Below are positions 44,805 to 64,000 of a stretch of 64,000 nucleotides of DNA, piece by piece; within the stretch, counting starts at the first letter, position 1; every line of letters starts with the position of its first letter. Below the pieces are notes generated by a model. That model was given only the letters and a program-made list of their open reading frames with translations. It was not told where the DNA came from and did not search any database. The stretch lies in NCBI GenBank assembly GCA_947259495.1, contig CAMYLV010000010.1, positions 159,513 through 223,512 of the forward strand, in the 5' to 3' direction. A program made the translations under genes and the position numbers. The DNA comes from an uncultured Desulfobacterales bacterium. GTDB lineage: Bacteria > Desulfobacterota > Desulfobacteria > Desulfobacterales > JAHEIW01.

Positions 44805-46890
44805 CGTTTAACTCCAGTACATCTAAGGATTGTATTTCAATGTTACTGAGAATTTCATCATAGGACAGCACGGTAACCCGGGGCATAAACCGATCCACGA
44901 GCTGTTTGACATGGTACCGGATCTGGGCCGAACACAGCACCACCGGCTGATAGCGTAAAGAAGAAAACTTTTCTAGACGTTCCACCAGGTTGTTCATCAT
45001 CTGCTGAGCAATATTGGGATCCAGTGCTAAAAAGGTTCCATGATCGGTTTGCTGCAATGCACCTGAAATGGCAGATTCTAGACTGTGACCGAGGGTAATG
45101 GCAGCAATGTTGCCTTCCGGTGTCAGGTGCATTTTGGTTGTCGTTCGCGCCAATGCGTGGCGCACATGTTCGGTTAAGATGACCAGATCCTTTGTGGCTG
45201 GGGCCCAGTCTGCAATGGTTTCACATATGGCCAGTAAATCGCGAATAGGAACCTGTTCGCGAAGAAGATTACGCAATACCCGGACGAGTCCCCCCAACGG
45301 TAATAAATTGGGAACCAGTTCTTCGACAACCTTGGGATGGGTTTCCTTTAGCGTATCCAATAGTTGCTGGACATCCTGTCTGCCAAGCATTTCGTGGCAG
45401 TGCTGCTTGACGATTTCAGACAGATGGGTCGTCAGCACGGTTGCCAGATCCACGACCGTAAACCCTTTGGCCAGCGCCTGCTCTTTGACATCTTCTTTTA
45501 TCCACAGGGCCGGCAAACCGTATGTGGGCTCATAGGTTGGGATGCCGTCAATTTTTTCTTCGATGGCATTCGGATTCATCGCCAGAAAATAGTTGGACAT
45601 TAATTCCCCTCTGGCGACTTCATTACCTTTGAGCAAAATGGCATATTCACCGGATTTTAACTGCATGTTATCCTGGATGTGCACCGGCGCGACAATGATC
45701 CCAAGCTCGCGTGCGATCTGGCGACGTAACGATTTAATGCGTTCCAATAGCTGACCATCCTGCTCGATATCCACCAGTGGAATAAGCCCGTATCCGACTT
45801 CGATCGCCAATGTATCCAGCGGAGGCAGTGCATCGAACTGATCCGTCGGTAATGCTTTTTCTTCACTTATTTTCTTTACCTCCTCAGCCCGGGCACGTTC
45901 TTTGATAGACTGGAATATGGTATATGCCAGCCCGCCAGACAAAACCGCTAAAACCAGAAACGGCACGGTGGGCAAACCGGGCACCAGACCAAAGCCAAAA
46001 AGAACCCCTGCGGCCACGGCGATCGCTTTCGGCTGTATGAGTACCTGCGATGCAATTTCTTTTCCCAAACTCGAATCCGCCCCGGCACGGGTAACAATAA
46101 CCCCGGCGGCGGTGGAGACGATGAGGGCCGGCACCTGGCTGACCAGACCATCACCAATTGTCAGCAAGGTATAATTTTGGGCGGCATCGACAAAGGTCAT
46201 GGAGTTTTGAAAAATACCGATGGACAGCCCGCCGATAATATTGATCAGGGTAATGACGATTCCGGCTATCGCATCACCGCGCACGAATTTATTGGCGCCA
46301 TCCATCGCCCCATAGTACTCGGCTTCCCGGGCGATGATGCTACGCCGTTCACGGGCTTCCAGCTCGGTGATTAAACCAGCATTCAGATCGGCATCGATGC
46401 TCATCTGTTTGCCGGGCATGGCATCCAGCGTAAATCGTGCCGCCACTTCGGCAATTCGACCAGCCCCTTTGGTAATCACCATGAAGTTAATGGCCACCAG
46501 TATTAGAAAAACAATAATGCCCACCAGATAGTTACCGCCGACTACAAACCCGCCGAATGACTGGATGACCCTGCCGGCGGCCAGGGTGCCTTCATTGCCG
46601 TGCAGCAAAATGATACGGGTCGAGGCAACGTTAAGCGACAAGCGGAATAAGGTTACCAGAAGCAGAATCGACGGAAATGAGGATAAATCAAGCGGCCGCG
46701 AAACATACATGCTGGCCAGAAGAATGATCAGCGAAAAGGTAATACTGAAAGACAACAGCAGATCCAGCAGAAAGGTCGGCAAAGGCATGACCATAAAAAT
46801 CAGGATGCCGACCACGGCTACGGCCATCAAAAGGTCGCTGTTTTTAGCAACCAATGGAATTTGGCCTGTCATTTGAGTCTGATCTGCCAA
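44794..46890 (-). CDS. flhA: Flagellar export protein FlhA
   Basis: The 698-residue export-gate protein has eight transmembrane segments in the first half (about 15-330), the FHIPEP-like loop with ITKGAGRIAEVAARFTLDAMPGKQMSIDADL, and a large cytoplasmic C-domain (about 345-698) that binds chaperones. Length and motifs are normal. It forms the nonameric ring of the flagellar type III export gate and couples proton flow to export. Confidence 0.97.
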   Translation of the reverse strand: MADQTQMTGQIPLVAKNSDLLMAVAVVGILIFMVMPLPTFLLDLLLSFSITFSLIILLASMYVSRPLDLSSFPSILLLVTLFRLSLNVASTRIILLHGNEGTLAAGRVIQSFGGFVVGGNYLVGIIVFLILVAINFMVITKGAGRIAEVAARFTLDAMPGKQMSIDADLNAGLITELEARERRSIIAREAEYYGAMDGANKFVRGDAIAGIVITLINIIGGLSIGIFQNSMTFVDAAQNYTLLTIGDGLVSQVPALIVSTAAGVIVTRAGADSSLGKEIASQVLIQPKAIAVAAGVLFGFGLVPGLPTVPFLVLAVLSGGLAYTIFQSIKERARAEEVKKISEEKALPTDQFDALPPLDTLAIEVGYGLIPLVDIEQDGQLLERIKSLRRQIARELGIIVAPVHIQDNMQLKSGEYAILLKGNEVARGELMSNYFLAMNPNAIEEKIDGIPTYEPTYGLPALWIKEDVKEQALAKGFTVVDLATVLTTHLSEIVKQHCHEMLGRQDVQQLLDTLKETHPKVVEELVPNLLPLGGLVRVLRNLLREQVPIRDLLAICETIADWAPATKDLVILTEHVRHALARTTTKMHLTPEGNIAAITLGHSLESAISGALQQTDHGTFLALDPNIAQQMMNNLVERLEKFSSLRYQPVVLCSAQIRYHVKQLVDRFMPRVTVLSYDEILSNIEIQSLDVLELNDAD

Positions 46891-46901
46891 AGAAATTTCC
46901 T

Positions 46902-47981
46902 TTAAAATGCCGTTTGGTAAATACCCTTGAGGCGGTAGACATATGCCAATACTTCGGCCACAGCCCGGTAAAGCTCCGCCGGAATAAATTCACCGATCTC
47001 AACCATTTTATGCAAGGCCTGGGCCAACGGTTTATCTTCAACAAGCGGCACCCGGTTTTCGCGGGCAATCTCTTTTATTTTTTCTGCAATGTTGCCAGCG
47101 CCTTTGGCAACCACCTTCGGAGCCATCATCTGTACCGCATCAAACTTTAGCGCCACGGCCAGATGAACGGGGTTGGTAATGACGACATCCGCCTCGGGCA
47201 CAGCTTCCATCATCCGGCGACTGGCCATCTCCAGCTGCATCTTTCGAATCCGCCCCTTAACCTTGGGATCCCCTTCACTTTGCCTGCGTTCATCTTTGAC
47301 TTCCTGCTTGGTCATCTTCAGGTTTTCCTCGTACTGCCAGCGCTGGTAAATATAATCGAGGACCGCCAAAATAATGAGCGCCAGGCACACGAAGAAAAAT
47401 ATTTTAAGGGCCACTGCGCCGATAAAAAGTAAGATCTCGCCGACTTCCTGTTGTATTAAAGCAGGAAACTTGGTTATTTCCTTTTTGACGACCCCGTAAG
47501 CGATCAGGCCGACTAAAAGGATTTTAAATAGGGATTTCACCAGCTCCACCAGCGATTTCAAGGAAACCAGCTTTTTTAAGCCCGAAATCGGGTTGAATTT
47601 GGATAGTTTGGGCCGCATGGGTTCGCTGTGCATTTCAAATCCAATCTGACCAATGTTGCCCGCCAACCCGGCAATCAGAACCGGCACAAAAAACGGAATT
47701 AAAATAAAAAATACTTTCCCGAAAATAGCCGCAGCAAAGACACTGAGATCTGAAACCACATCGATCCGCAGAGTGTCTAGCTGCTGATAGATGCCACCGA
47801 TCACCTCCGAGATGCTCCAGAACATCCATGAACCGGCAAAATAGAAAAAACCCATGGCGGTCATTAAAATCAGAACCGACGGAATCTCTCGGCTTTGGGC
47901 AACCTGTCCTTTGCGCCTGGCTCGCTCCCGGCGTTTCGGGGTTGCTTTTTCGGTACGTTCCTGACCAGCGCTTTCTGGCAT
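46902..47981 (-). CDS. flhB: Flagellar export switch protein FlhB (NPVH variant)
   Basis: The 359-residue protein begins with the typical QERTEKATPKRRERARRKGQVAQS, has four transmembrane segments, and a cytoplasmic C-domain. The autocleavage site usually NPTH reads ITNPVHLAVALKF, so Asn-Pro is kept but Thr is Val. The C-domain continues VAKGAGNIAEKIKEIARENRVPLVEDKPLAQAL. FlhB switches export from hook to filament substrates after cleavage. The change may slow or alter cleavage (inference). Confidence 0.95.
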   Translation of the reverse strand: MPESAGQERTEKATPKRRERARRKGQVAQSREIPSVLILMTAMGFFYFAGSWMFWSISEVIGGIYQQLDTLRIDVVSDLSVFAAAIFGKVFFILIPFFVPVLIAGLAGNIGQIGFEMHSEPMRPKLSKFNPISGLKKLVSLKSLVELVKSLFKILLVGLIAYGVVKKEITKFPALIQQEVGEILLFIGAVALKIFFFVCLALIILAVLDYIYQRWQYEENLKMTKQEVKDERRQSEGDPKVKGRIRKMQLEMASRRMMEAVPEADVVITNPVHLAVALKFDAVQMMAPKVVAKGAGNIAEKIKEIARENRVPLVEDKPLAQALHKMVEIGEFIPAELYRAVAEVLAYVYRLKGIYQTAF

Positions 47982-51732: not shown

Positions 51733-52194
51733 TTATTGAATGACAAATTCGGTAAAAAAGATATTGCTAATCACCTCTGTCGGAAACAGGCCGTTGAGTT
51801 TACCGATAATTTCGTCCCGCAGAGCTGTCTTGCCTTCCATGCTGGCGATTTCCTCAAATCGCTTGGAAGGCAGTATCATCAAAATGCGATCTCTTATCTG
51901 GGGCAACCGCTCATTGAGTTTTTCAGCATCGCTTGACGCCGCGAGCTCGAGGTCCATCGTTATTCTTAAATACCGGTTGCGTTGCGGGTCAGCGAGATTG
52001 ACAATGAACGTATCCAGTGAAAAAAGCGGTCCCAACTGGGCCGTCTGGCCCTGGTCGGTTTCGGTGTTAACGACCCCGTTTGCCGGGGTACTCAGGTCGG
52101 AAAGCTTGCTCCACACCATGAAAAAGCCGGCGGCCAGGCCGATGGTCACTACCAGCATGACAGCAATAACTAAAGACATTATTTTATTTGACAT
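51733..52194 (-). CDS. fliL: Flagellar basal body-associated protein FliL
   Basis: The 153-residue protein has one N-terminal transmembrane segment (about 7-28) and a periplasmic domain with FSLDTFIVNLADPQRNRYLRITMDLELA and a C-terminus ending VISNIFFTEFVIQ. It forms rings around stators. It overlaps the motB stop by 11 nt. Confidence 0.93.
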   Translation of the reverse strand: MSNKIMSLVIAVMLVVTIGLAAGFFMVWSKLSDLSTPANGVVNTETDQGQTAQLGPLFSLDTFIVNLADPQRNRYLRITMDLELAASSDAEKLNERLPQIRDRILMILPSKRFEEIASMEGKTALRDEIIGKLNGLFPTEVISNIFFTEFVIQ

Positions 52195-52933
52195 TTTCCT
52201 GTTTGCCCTCCGTTAATAATAGGATTTCCACCCGTCTGTTTTTCATGCGATTGGCGGGCGAATCATTGGCGACAAGCGGTCGCGATTCGCCGTATCCCAC
52301 CGCTGAAAGCCTGTGGGGGTCGACCTTGCAGACCTCGGCAAAATATTTGACTACATTCACAGCCCGCGCCACCGACAGTTCCCAGTTTGAGGGGAATCGT
52401 GCGGTTTGGATAGGGATATTGTCGGTATGTCCTTCAACCCGCACCGCATCGGGCACCCGTTTGATGGCCTTGACGATCTGATCCAATAGTGCATAGCCTG
52501 CCGGGTTGATGCCCGCTTTGCCAAAATTAAAAAGAATCTGGTCTTCAAAAGAAAGCCGAATCCCCTGATGGGTGTGGGTGACCTGAATTCCAAAATCAGC
52601 CTCCAAAGATTTCATGAGTGCATCGCTTGAAAGCCCGGTTAGACGCTTTTGGGGAGATGTCTTAACGCCTTCGGGCTGGGTCCCAATGTGTGACATGTCC
52701 TCAACCGGCTGGGTCGTTTTGATACTGATATTGACCATCCGACCTTCTTTTAAAATTCCCAGACCGCTTTGCAGTGCATTTTGAAAATCCTGTATTTTTT
52801 TAGCATCGACGCTGCTCATCGCAAACAGCAACACAAAAAAAACCATCAGCAGGGTCACCAGGTCATTAAAAGTGGTCAACCAGCCGGCGCTATTGCCGCC
52901 CTCGACCCCGGAATTCTGTCGCTGTCTTCTCAC
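52184..52933 (-). CDS. motB: Flagellar motor stator protein MotB
   Basis: The 249-residue protein has the transmembrane helix WLTTFNDLVTLLMVFFVLLF with the ion-binding Asp in place, a plug region, and a C-terminal OmpA-like peptidoglycan-binding domain (VRVEGHTDNIPIQTARFPSNWELSVARAVNVV). It anchors the stator and carries the proton or sodium site. It is the second of two adjacent MotB-like genes and overlaps the first by 4 nt. Confidence 0.94.
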   Translation of the reverse strand: MRRQRQNSGVEGGNSAGWLTTFNDLVTLLMVFFVLLFAMSSVDAKKIQDFQNALQSGLGILKEGRMVNISIKTTQPVEDMSHIGTQPEGVKTSPQKRLTGLSSDALMKSLEADFGIQVTHTHQGIRLSFEDQILFNFGKAGINPAGYALLDQIVKAIKRVPDAVRVEGHTDNIPIQTARFPSNWELSVARAVNVVKYFAEVCKVDPHRLSAVGYGESRPLVANDSPANRMKNRRVEILLLTEGKQENVK

Positions 52934-53673
52934 GGGCTTTCCTCGTTGGCTGGATTCTGAAGGTCCGGTCGAATAAATATCACTTCAACTCTCCGATTGG
53001 TGGTCTGGTTTTCAACCGTATCATTGGCGACCAGGGGCCGAAATTCCCCAAATCCTTCAGCCGACAGTCGTTGCGCATCGATCCGGTGTTGTTCAATAAA
53101 ATACCGTAGAACATTGACCGCCCGGGCGGTGGATAATTCCCAGTTGGACGGGAATACGGCCGTGTGAATAGGAACATCGTCGGTGTGCCCCTCTATGCGG
53201 ATCAGATAGGTGGTTTGGGCAACAAGCGCCCCGATTTTTTCAAGCAGCGGAAGGGCCGGCGTTGAAATAGAGGCCACCCCTGATTCGAAAAGAGTCTGTT
53301 CGGACAGGCGCATCACCAGGCCTTCCCGGGAAAACAGCACTTCGATCTCATCTTTCAGATTGAATTTATCAGAGAGCAACTCCAGATGTTCAAAAAGTTT
53401 GGCCAGTTCAGATCGGCTTTTGACCATACCCGCGGATTCCGGCAGGACAACCGATCCGGATTCAAATTTGATTCCGCCGGAGAATAAACCGACAGCATGG
53501 CTAAAGGAGCGTACAAATCGCATGACCTTGGCCTCGTCCATGGTGGAAAACGAACACAGCATGATAAAAAAACACAATAAAATGAGAATAAATCCGGAGT
53601 AGACAATTTCCCGTCCGCCGCTGGAAGCGCTATGACCGTTTTTGGATCCAACTCTTTGATTTTTTCTTTTCAT
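52930..53673 (-). CDS. MotB paralogue lacking the ion-binding Asp
   Basis: The 247-residue protein has the same architecture as the next gene, including OmpA motif RIEGHTDDVPIHTAVFPSNWELS. Its transmembrane helix reads EIVYSGFILILLCFFIMLCS. Aligned without gaps to TTFNDLVTLLMVFFVLLFAM in MotB, the essential Asp is Gly here. It cannot carry ions by the known mechanism, so it may be a heterodimer partner or a structural stator component. It is coupled to motA upstream (4-nt gap) and motB downstream (4-nt overlap). There is only one MotA. Confidence 0.9.
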   Translation of the reverse strand: MKRKNQRVGSKNGHSASSGGREIVYSGFILILLCFFIMLCSFSTMDEAKVMRFVRSFSHAVGLFSGGIKFESGSVVLPESAGMVKSRSELAKLFEHLELLSDKFNLKDEIEVLFSREGLVMRLSEQTLFESGVASISTPALPLLEKIGALVAQTTYLIRIEGHTDDVPIHTAVFPSNWELSTARAVNVLRYFIEQHRIDAQRLSAEGFGEFRPLVANDTVENQTTNRRVEVIFIRPDLQNPANEESP

Positions 53674-59756: not shown

Positions 59757-60956
59757 TTAAGCTTCAAACAGCTTGGCCAGCTGAGAAATGCAGTCGTCAA
59801 AGGTGCTTGTTTCGTCGATGTCCTGCCTTAAATAGCGATTGATCTTTTCAATCATCGCAATGGCATAATCGATTTTAGCGTTGCTGCCGGCGACATAAGC
59901 GCCAATGTTAATCAAATCTTCGGCCTTGCGATAGGTGGCCAAAACTTCCTTTAATTTTCGGGCGTACTGTTTTTGGTCCGAATCAATGATATCTTCCATC
60001 ACCCGGCTGATGCTGCCGAGGACATCGATGGCCGGATAATGTGCCTGGTTGGCTAAATCCCGTGAGAGGTTGATATGACCATCGAGAATGGAACGCAGGG
60101 CATCGGCAATAGGTTCGTTGGTGTCATCACCTTCCACCAGGACGGTATACAGTCCGGTGATGGTGCCTCTGTTGGCGGAGGTTCCCGCCCGTTCACATAA
60201 TTTGGGCAAAAGCGTGAATACCGATGGTGTATACCCCTTGGTGGTCGGCGGCTCGCCCAATGCCAGCCCAATTTCACGCTGGGCCATGGCAAAGCGGGTG
60301 ACCGAATCCATCATTAAATTGACGTGGTGGCCCTGATCGCGAAAGAATTCAGCAATGGCGGTCGCAATAAATGCGCCTCGCATGCGGATCAGCGGCAGAT
60401 GGTCAGATGTCGCCACTACAATCACCGAACGCTTAAGGCCTTCCGGGCCGAGTTCTTTTTCGATAAATTCATTGACTTCACGACCGCGCTCGCCGATCAG
60501 GGCAATCACGTTTACATCGGCGGCCGTTTTACGGGCGATCATGCCCAACAACACGCTTTTGCCCACTCCAGAGCCGGCAAAAATACCGATTCGTTGGCCG
60601 CAGCCCAGGGTTAACAAACCATTAATGGCCCGGATACCTAAATCAAGCGGTTGGGTTATCCGTTGGCGGGACAGGGGGTTGACGGGCGTCCCGTAAATGG
60701 GATATTCGCATTCAACCGCAATCGGCCCTTTGTTATCGATGGGATTGCCGAGTCCATTGATAACCCGCCCCAAAAGCCCGGAACCGACCGGAATGAATGC
60801 TCGCTGCTGTCGGGCAACGATCGGGCACCCGGGACCGATGCCCCGCATTTCCTCCAGGGGCATCATCATGACCTTATTGTCCCGGAATCCCAAAACCTCT
60901 GCCGTTATCTTGCGCAGCGGACAGCGGACCTTGGGCTTCGATGACCAGACCCACAA
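59757..60956 (-). CDS. fliI: Flagellar export ATPase FliI, frame-disrupted at the N-terminus
   Basis: This 399-residue ORF covers the ATPase core and C-terminus of FliI: LRKITAEVLGFRDNKVMMMPLEEM, Walker A GIFAGSGVGKSVLLGM, and LMMDSVTRFAMAQREIGLALGEPP. Its first dozen codons (MWVWSSKPKVRCP) are out-of-frame reading of the true N-terminus, which is encoded upstream in another frame (see 60874-61041). So the gene is broken near 60911-60925. The ORF as annotated is probably not translated alone from its TTG. The core motifs are intact, so a sequencing or assembly error is possible. Confidence 0.92.
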   Translation of the reverse strand: MWVWSSKPKVRCPLRKITAEVLGFRDNKVMMMPLEEMRGIGPGCPIVARQQRAFIPVGSGLLGRVINGLGNPIDNKGPIAVECEYPIYGTPVNPLSRQRITQPLDLGIRAINGLLTLGCGQRIGIFAGSGVGKSVLLGMIARKTAADVNVIALIGERGREVNEFIEKELGPEGLKRSVIVVATSDHLPLIRMRGAFIATAIAEFFRDQGHHVNLMMDSVTRFAMAQREIGLALGEPPTTKGYTPSVFTLLPKLCERAGTSANRGTITGLYTVLVEGDDTNEPIADALRSILDGHINLSRDLANQAHYPAIDVLGSISRVMEDIIDSDQKQYARKLKEVLATYRKAEDLINIGAYVAGSNAKIDYAIAMIEKINRYLRQDIDETSTFDDCISQLAKLFEA

Positions 60957-61041
60957 TATTGGTCACTTGCCCACTGGCCTGAATGGTGCAGGTCGAATCC
61001 AGACATCGGCGATATTTATTCAGATGTAAGGTCGTTGCCAT
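60874..61041 (-). pseudogene. fliI: FliI N-terminal fragment in a different frame
   Basis: From ATG 61041, 6-7 nt after the fliH stop, the minus strand encodes MATTLHLNKYRRCLDSTCTI then GQVTNIVGLVIEAQGPLSA, a clear FliI N-terminal beta-barrel start. It then runs out of frame to a TAA. The homologous continuation (LRKITAEVLGF) is in the frame of the 399-residue ORF. Compared with other FliI proteins, roughly 15 residues between EAQG and AEVLGF also seem to be missing. The junction contains CCGCTGTCCGCTG, a direct repeat. Genuine deletion or assembly collapse are both possible. Confidence 0.8.
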
Positions 61042-61047
61042 CGTTGC

Positions 61048-61803
61048 TTATTCGAATTCCTGTTTCGGCTGTTCAAACTGGGCCTGGAATGCTTCTTCAA
61101 TCGCCTCAAATTGTTTTTCAATGCGCGCGTCGATGTCTCCCCTGTCGGTCTCAATTAAACAGCCCCCGCTTTGAATCGAATCTTCGGCCTCAAAGCGAAC
61201 ATGATCAAAATTTTGAAAAAAGTGGGTAAATTGAGATTGGGTGTCTTCAATAAATCGAAGATCGTGCGGGTTGAATTTGATCTTTATTTTCCCGGGATTG
61301 TCAATGCGACCCAAGGCCTCCCGCGCAACGCAGGCAACCGTTTCCTGGGTGGTTTTGATCTCGTGACAGACGATTTTTTTGGCAATCGACAAAGCCAGAT
61401 GCGTCACTTCTTTTTCAATTTCCTCATGAATTTCGGCGCGAATATTTTGCAATTGCTCAAGAGCGCGCTCTAGACTGCCAATAACCGCCTCCGCTTTTTT
61501 CGACCCGGACTCAAAACCAACTCTTTTACCTTCTAGAAAACCCTTTTGAAAGGCGCTTTCTTTAGTCTTATCCATCGCAGTTCCTTGATCTGTGACCGGC
61601 GTTTCTGCTATTTCTGAAACAGGCAGATCCGCTGCACAGGTCGCATCCGGATCGATATTTTTAAAATGCGAGCGTTTAAATTCACGGTTGTTTGCCCGGC
61701 GATCACTGTCATCGGGGGTTTCATCCACCGGGATATTGGGAAAATAATGCAGGCGAAAACCTTCCACCAGCGCTTGCGGTCCCTTTTTAATAGGGTCAGT
61801 CAA
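61048..61803 (-). CDS. fliH: Flagellar export ATPase regulator FliH
   Basis: The roughly 251-residue protein has a variable N-terminal half, a Gly-spaced helix region AFQKGFLEGKRVGFESGSKKAEAVIGSLERA, and a C-terminal domain with VTHLALSIAKKIVCHEI and DARIEKQFEAIEEAF. It controls FliI. TTG 61803 is the better start because GAGGAG is 9 nt upstream and it overlaps the fliG stop; the track start at 61830 lies inside the fliG end. Confidence 0.9.
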   Translation of the reverse strand: MTDPIKKGPQALVEGFRLHYFPNIPVDETPDDSDRRANNREFKRSHFKNIDPDATCAADLPVSEIAETPVTDQGTAMDKTKESAFQKGFLEGKRVGFESGSKKAEAVIGSLERALEQLQNIRAEIHEEIEKEVTHLALSIAKKIVCHEIKTTQETVACVAREALGRIDNPGKIKIKFNPHDLRFIEDTQSQFTHFFQNFDHVRFEAEDSIQSGGCLIETDRGDIDARIEKQFEAIEEAFQAQFEQPKQEFE

Positions 61804-61941
61804 TGATATCATCTCCTCGGCGACCGGCAATGATTAACTCTCCTTTGGTTTCCATCTCCTGAATGATATTGGTAATATTTTGCTGCGCATCGGTAACTTC
61901 TTTCATGCGCACCGGTCCCATATCTTCTATTTCTTCTTCAT
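61796..61941 (-). pseudogene. fliG: FliG C-terminal remnant in a different frame
   Basis: In the frame after the fliG ORF stop, the minus strand reads EEIEDMGPVRMKEVTDAQQN then ITNIIQEMETKGELIIAGRR to TGA at 61796. This is the true FliG C-terminus, including the GPVR motif. It is cut off from the main fliG ORF by a frame disruption at ATGAAGAAGAAATAG. Relative to E. coli FliG about 29 residues carrying most of the torque helix are missing at the same place, so one deletion of 3n+1 bases would explain everything. Confidence 0.85.
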
Positions 61942-62658
61942 GGTTTCGACCCTGCGAAACAGTTTCTGAACGCCGCGGTCATCAACCAACAGGATATCTT
62001 CAAACACAAACATGCGTCGTTTGACCTGTGCCGCTATTTCCATGTCAGCCTCTTCCAGCTCATTTAGGATCAATTCGCTGGATATCTCATCGGTCTGATT
62101 TAACATTTCAGCCAGACGATCAACGCCACCCGTGACATTCGAAATGGAATTTTGTTTGGTTTTTAAAATCTCTTTCAAAACCGCATTGACTTCATCGACG
62201 ATGGCGGCTGTCACCTTATCCAGATTCACGACCCGCATCGCCACCTCTGTTTTAATTTCATCCGGCAATTTGCCGATCACATCACTGGCCACACTGGTTT
62301 TAAGATGCACCAGAATAATGGCGATCGTCTGCGGTTGTTCATCTTTGATCAGGTTAAAAATTTGATCGGCGCCCAGCGAAGTGATGGCCTGAAGACCGCT
62401 GGTTTCAGCATCTGAATCGCCGGCAGCGACAGATGATGTCACCTGTTTTGGTTTATAGCGCTGGGCCACAGCGGCAAATTCTCTGGCGACCTGCTCGACA
62501 ACCTCGGGAGAAATGGTCCGGATTTGCGATAGATGATTACGAATGCGTTCTTTTTCCGATTGACTCAACCGCTGAAGCAGTCGATCGGCCAGTGGTTTAC
62601 CCAGCGCGTGAATCAGAATGGCCGCTTTTACCGGCCCCGTTATGCCTTTTGAATCCAT
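61927..62658 (-). CDS. fliG: Flagellar motor switch protein FliG, truncated by frame disruption
   Basis: The 243-residue ORF has the FliG N and middle domains: ITGPVKAAILIHALGKPLAD, DQIFNLIKDEQPQTIAIILVHL with DEIKTEVAMRVVNLDKV, and the start of the C-domain FVFEDILLVDDRGVQKLFRRVE. It then ends TMKKK, about 90 residues short of the normal length (about 330). The rest of the C-domain lies just downstream in another frame, minus the torque-generating helix. As written the protein could not drive rotation. It sits between fliF and fliH. Confidence 0.92.
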   Translation of the reverse strand: MDSKGITGPVKAAILIHALGKPLADRLLQRLSQSEKERIRNHLSQIRTISPEVVEQVAREFAAVAQRYKPKQVTSSVAAGDSDAETSGLQAITSLGADQIFNLIKDEQPQTIAIILVHLKTSVASDVIGKLPDEIKTEVAMRVVNLDKVTAAIVDEVNAVLKEILKTKQNSISNVTGGVDRLAEMLNQTDEISSELILNELEEADMEIAAQVKRRMFVFEDILLVDDRGVQKLFRRVETMKKK

Positions 62659-62706: not shown

Positions 62707-64000
62707 CTATTCTTCTTTCAACCAGTCTCGCATCACGCCCACTGATGCGTCGTTGTCCCGGGTTATCAATTGCGATATCTCATCTTTAAACGCTAGCTGT
62801 TTCGGATCAGCGCCGTATTCATTTTCCAGCTCTCCGACGGTTTTGGGAAGCTGCCGCAGAATCTCAGCGTCACCGGCCGGCTGTGCTGTCAGCCATTTGA
62901 TCAGAGGTTTAACCACGAACACAAAAGATAGAAGCAAAAACAAACTCAAAAACGTATATTTAAAATAAGGCCTATACTTCTTCAAATGCACCAGCCAGCG
63001 ATCCACTGTCGATTCGGCCTCTGATTGTGCGATTTGCGCCGTTTCAAAGGGGATGTTGACAACCTCTACTTGATCGCCGCGATCGGCATCAAAATTGACC
63101 GCCCGCTTGACAAGGTTTTCGATTTGGGTCAGTTCCTCGGACGAGCGGGGTACATAGGACAATTCATTTTTACCGGCTGCGGTCGCATTTGACTGATAGG
63201 TGCCATCGACCAGGACAGCCACCGAGATGCGTTCAATACCACCGACCGGCTCCAAGGTGCGACTGGTCAACTTGCCAATCTCATAATTTACGGTTCGATC
63301 CTGCTTCGCAAAAGTGGTATTTTCGTCATCCGTGCTTTGGTTGAGGGCTGCACTGGTTTCGGGCAGATTTGATTGAATTCCGGGTATGCCCTTGGGAATG
63401 GGATCGTTTTCTTTTGCCGTTTCATTGAAGGTTTGTTCGCTGCGTACAACTTGATTTTCCGGCAAAAACCGCTCCTCGGTCATTTCATGCTGCTTAAAAT
63501 TCAACGCGCAGGACACACGCACGATGGCCCGGTTGGCACCCAGGGCCTTTTCCAGCATCGACAGGACCCGATTCTCCAGCTTGCGTTCGACATTGACCTG
63601 ATGGTCGAGTTGATCCGTACTGAGCGTCGTCATGCCTGAAGGGTCGTTGTGGCCGGTTAACAATCTACCGTTGCTGTCGACCACGGTAACTTTTGCTGGG
63701 CTCAAGCGCGATACGCTCGAAGACACAAGGTGCACAATGCCTTGAACCTGCTGCGGCGAAAGCCATTTGCCGTGATTCAATTTTAAGACAACTGAGGCGG
63801 AAGCCGATTCTTCCGCTTCGATAAAAAGCGATTTTTCCGGCATCACGATATGCACGCGGCAGCTGTCCACCTCCTCAAAGCCGTTGATAGTTCGGACGAG
63901 CTCGCCCTGCAGCGCTCTTTGATAGTTAACATTTTGCGCAAATTCGGTCATACCGAGTTTGGTATTGTCAAAGAGCTCAAAACCCATGCTTCCGCCCAAG
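62707..64000 (-). CDS. fliF: Flagellar M-ring protein FliF (partial, C-terminal part)
   Basis: About 431 residues of FliF are visible; the N-terminus lies beyond the window. Signatures are FELFDNTKLGMTEFAQNVNYQRALQGELVRTI (ring-building motif), SCRVHIVMPEKSLF, the transmembrane helix YTFLSLFLLLSFVFVVKP and the FliG-binding tail ending RDNDASVGVMRDWLKEE. FliF makes the MS-ring base. The C-terminal FliG-binding motif is intact, in contrast to the damaged fliG that follows. Confidence 0.95.
   Translation of the reverse strand, partial: LGGSMGFELFDNTKLGMTEFAQNVNYQRALQGELVRTINGFEEVDSCRVHIVMPEKSLFIEAEESASASVVLKLNHGKWLSPQQVQGIVHLVSSSVSRLSPAKVTVVDSNGRLLTGHNDPSGMTTLSTDQLDHQVNVERKLENRVLSMLEKALGANRAIVRVSCALNFKQHEMTEERFLPENQVVRSEQTFNETAKENDPIPKGIPGIQSNLPETSAALNQSTDDENTTFAKQDRTVNYEIGKLTSRTLEPVGGIERISVAVLVDGTYQSNATAAGKNELSYVPRSSEELTQIENLVKRAVNFDADRGDQVEVVNIPFETAQIAQSEAESTVDRWLVHLKKYRPYFKYTFLSLFLLLSFVFVVKPLIKWLTAQPAGDAEILRQLPKTVGELENEYGADPKQLAFKDEISQLITRDNDASVGVMRDWLKEE

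Follow-up and report, generated by a model that had tools for sequence, protein, structure and literature searches.

The fliG gene in the DNA that we analyzed (the window, a 64,000-nucleotide stretch from an uncultured Desulfobacterales bacterium) lacks 88 bp that all the relatives compared retain, and its coding sequence is consequently split between two reading frames. We consider it likely that this break arose as a wrongly closed join during draft assembly, not by mutation in the cell, and we infer this from breaks of similar appearance that the draft also shows in unrelated genes.

The missing segment of fliG

The whole fliG region occupies positions 61796-62658 of the window on the minus strand and comprises the following parts.

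61927..62658, minus strand: main part of fliG, a 243-residue ORF that contains FliG_N, FliG_M and the first part of FliG_C
61796..61936, minus strand, -1 frame: the C-terminal 46 residues of fliG (Pfam FliG_C 73-108)
61936..61942, minus strand: the fliG junction, where the 88 bp are absent relative to all sister genomes; the ends of the gap carry no direct repeat

The first-pass annotation had described a main ORF that stops after FRRVETMKKK and a C terminus encoded directly downstream in another frame, and both observations hold. The final KKK before the stop already belongs to the shifted frame, and the 46-residue tail in the -1 frame reads from EEIEDMGPVR to AGRRGDDIID. FliG_N, FliG_M and part of FliG_C are found by Pfam in the main ORF, with the FliG_C match divided between profile positions 2-41 in this ORF and 73-108 in the frame-shifted downstream piece. 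Stop-to-stop fliG frames in the six intact relatives, three of them from the same genus and three more distant, are 325-331 codons long; a continuous frame of about 325-331 residues is not found in the window, where 243 and 46 residues stand in two frames. DNA alignment with the same genomes revealed a single gap in the window fliG and none in the others. Its length of exactly 88 bp (3 x 29 + 1) agrees with the single deletion of 3n+1 bases, about 29 codons or about 88 bases, that had been proposed from the sequence alone. A gap of this length breaks the frame inside FliG_C, so that the main ORF terminates after 243 residues, with the remaining 46 encoded in the -1 frame.

Comparison with sister genomes and a search for a second gene copy had both been put forward as checks. 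All three of the other genomes of the genus that we examined carry a whole fliG, as do more distant relatives, and a genus-wide variant of the gene was rejected on this basis. A search of the whole genome matched only the two pieces already described, with neither a second fliG nor a displaced copy of the missing piece being found. The intact same-genus proteins (PF14842, PF14841 and PF01706) are encoded in the locus order fliF-fliG-fliH-fliI, which is common to the window, and the orthologues in sister genomes G001 and G002 have ~82% protein identity to the window FliG. The tail is identical in protein sequence to that of G002. All three domains are thus at least partly there in the window gene, but it is 88 bp shorter than its same-genus counterparts, is frame-broken in FliG_C and has lost two charged residues.

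Using E. coli FliG from MG1655 as the reference for residue numbering, the deleted stretch corresponds to residues 258-287 and includes Lys-264 and Arg-281. The counterparts of Asp-288 and Asp-289 (both glutamate here) and of Arg-297 are still encoded, albeit in the wrong frame, and the full charged torque set (K264, R281, D288, D289 and R297) is not found in the window FliG. The earlier statement that the gene lacks the torque helix is therefore only partly correct: the first part of that region is gone, and the last part is still encoded out of frame.

The intact sequence of the tail, which contains an internal ATG, could be taken to mean that FliG still functions in a shortened form, or in a split form whose tail is produced on its own or through frameshifting, and that the rotor operates without its usual torque contacts. 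We regard such a working variant as highly improbable, because the break is common to no relative, because about 29 residues with the equivalents of K264 and R281 would still be missing, and because fliI is broken as well. Ribosomal -1 frameshifting was rejected, as the AAG AAG AAA TAG around the stop, read from the sequence, is not a usual slippery site.

A second break in the flagellar locus

Approximately 1 kb downstream of fliG there is a second break, absent from the first-pass annotation, in which fliI (59757-61041, minus strand) has lost 38 bp. The parts of this gene and its neighbors were assigned by comparison with the sister genomes and by Pfam.

60919..61041, minus strand: N-terminal piece of fliI, the first 41 codons of the sister frame (sister comparison)
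59757..60917, minus strand: remainder of fliI in a different frame, with 38 bp gone at the 60917/60919 junction relative to the sisters (sister comparison, Pfam)
61048..61830, minus strand: fliH, intact, between the broken fliG and fliI (sister comparison, Pfam)
62707..64000, minus strand: fliF, intact, upstream of fliG and running past the window edge (sister comparison, Pfam)

Single frames were observed for the other flagellar genes compared, among them fliF, fliH, fliJ, fliK, fliL, fliM, fliN, fliO, fliP and fliR, together with flhA, flhB, flhF, flhG, fliA, motA, two motB-like genes and the flg genes, the names being mostly from Pfam and, for flhF and flhG, partly from position. Two flagellin genes are also present. 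An apparent break in fliA arose only because the sister frame, taken from stop to stop, reaches upstream of the gene itself. The spacer between flhB and flhA (46890-46908) is ~100 bp shorter than in three sister genomes, with the flhB stop one codon later; it was not counted as a further break, as both genes are whole and the spacer is variable in length. The two motB-like genes lie in tandem after motA (52184-53673, minus strand), are ~35% alike in cross-hits and are found in the sisters too.

Breaks elsewhere in the draft genome

In our widest survey, in which 321 genes of the sister G001 were compared with stretches of the window's genome, clear breaks in the latter were seen in fliG (-88), fliI (-38), pgpA (-35) and a DsbA-like gene (+46). 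The pgpA gene, a housekeeping gene frame-broken by the absence of 35 bp (junction at about 105,355-105,360), lies outside the window (G000:C10, about 105,237-105,655), adjoins a signal-peptidase-like gene and is the sole PgpA match in the genome. The DsbA-like gene, also outside the window (G000:C9, stretch L136, about 352-850), is interrupted by an exact 46-bp tandem duplication. Upstream of this duplication, an in-frame TGA is present in FDDFQ*KYC in both the window's genome and G001, resembling a UxxC selenoprotein motif. Finally, the contig that carries fliG contains a run of 30 N (G000:C10:35483-35512) inside a small gene; the flanks of this run are practically continuous in G001, so an estimated join was placed where the sister DNA has no interruption. 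With fliI included, these cases show that breaks like that in fliG occur both in a neighboring gene and in unrelated genes of the draft.

The region of rpoB and the ribosomal proteins, about 50 genes, gave no clear break. Many of the in-frame stops and 1-7 bp shifts that the wide survey returned resemble shadow frames or upstream extensions, a judgment made on the set and not case by case. The same is true of the reverse comparison, where the cases flagged in G001 are mostly 1-7 bp shifts near gene starts or shadow frames; the excess of breaks in the window's genome over G001 is suggestive and does not amount to a measured rate.

When sister DNA was substituted for the missing sequence, neither the fliG gap nor the fliI gap was flanked by direct repeats. 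Repeat-mediated slippage was rejected on this basis for these two genes, the ends of the pgpA gap being judged by eye only.

Origin of the breaks and its consequences

The retained parts of both flagellar genes show normal constraint. The main part of fliG gave a dN/dS of 0.10 and the rest of fliI a value of 0.05, whereas the out-of-frame fliG tail gave 0.00-0.02 (dN ~0, dS ~0.5), indicating selection on the tail that either continues or ended only very recently. These values are like or below those of neighboring flagellar genes, with no sign of decay and none of the relaxed constraint expected of an established pseudogene. The break is therefore either very recent or absent from the cell. 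The variant entertained by the first-pass annotation is not supported, since it is found in no relative and constraint on the retained parts matches that on their neighbors; of its two other options, a dead motor and a wrong assembly, the second is the best fit and a real, very recent pseudogene is less probable.

Wrong assembly is favored on account of the clean losses in fliI and pgpA, the exact 46-bp duplication and the N-filled join, spread over unrelated genes. The whole fliG of every relative, the lack of direct repeats flanking the fliG and fliI gaps and the near-zero dN of the out-of-frame tail also speak for it. On this explanation, the cell would carry an ordinary fliG of full length, as its sisters do, from which 88 bases would have been lost when two pieces were joined, and the same joining process would also have produced the 38-bp loss in fliI, the 35-bp loss in pgpA, the duplication in the DsbA-like gene and the 30 N run. 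Cooley and Wright (2024, PMC11017572) show that a technical origin accounts for many of the apparent pseudogenes in bacterial assemblies. The present case resembles the assembly-made spurious pseudogenes described there in that conserved genes which close relatives have whole are disrupted in one assembly, and in that several breaks fall within a single draft. It differs in that the gaps comprise tens of bases, not single-base errors, and in that we infer the assembly cause.

Several observations count against an assembly error. The run of 30 N is the only one in the approximately 1.13 Mb of the genome examined, which leaves little visible trace of widespread scaffolding. Clean deletions without repeats are an unusual product of de Bruijn assembly, and four breaks among 321 genes do not greatly exceed a natural rate of pseudogenes. 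Two of the breaks, moreover, fall within one flagellar operon, an outcome that real loss of motility would share. The deletions may accordingly be real and very recent, in a strain that has just lost motility, with FliI broken near its N terminus and FliG ending before most of its C-terminal domain, such that the stator could not turn the rotor; the other flagellar genes would be intact through too little time for decay. The survey's break rate is compatible with such ordinary pseudogenes, and the remains, being normally constrained, are as consistent with a very recent event as with an artefact. We nevertheless judge a recent loss to be the less probable explanation, perhaps one chance among several. 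A break of the same kind affects pgpA, a gene unrelated to motility for which the genome holds no other copy, and this counts against a motility-specific cause; from the exact duplication and the N-filled join it is evident that the joins of this draft cannot be relied on; and the rest of the locus is whole, including motA, the motB-like genes and both flagellins. That a real deletion left a FliG rotor without its torque region, in a non-rotating flagellum or an export apparatus kept for another use, seems to us exceedingly doubtful.

The similar clean cuts in a neighboring gene and elsewhere in the draft point to wrongly joined sequence, or at most to a very recent gene loss, and not to a new kind of motor. 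If the break is real, it would be a loss of motility caught very early. The main value of the finding lies in the caution that it gives: two probable join errors could lead a reader to take a complete flagellar locus for that of a non-motile organism, and the pseudogenes of this draft should be interpreted only after the assembly has been checked.
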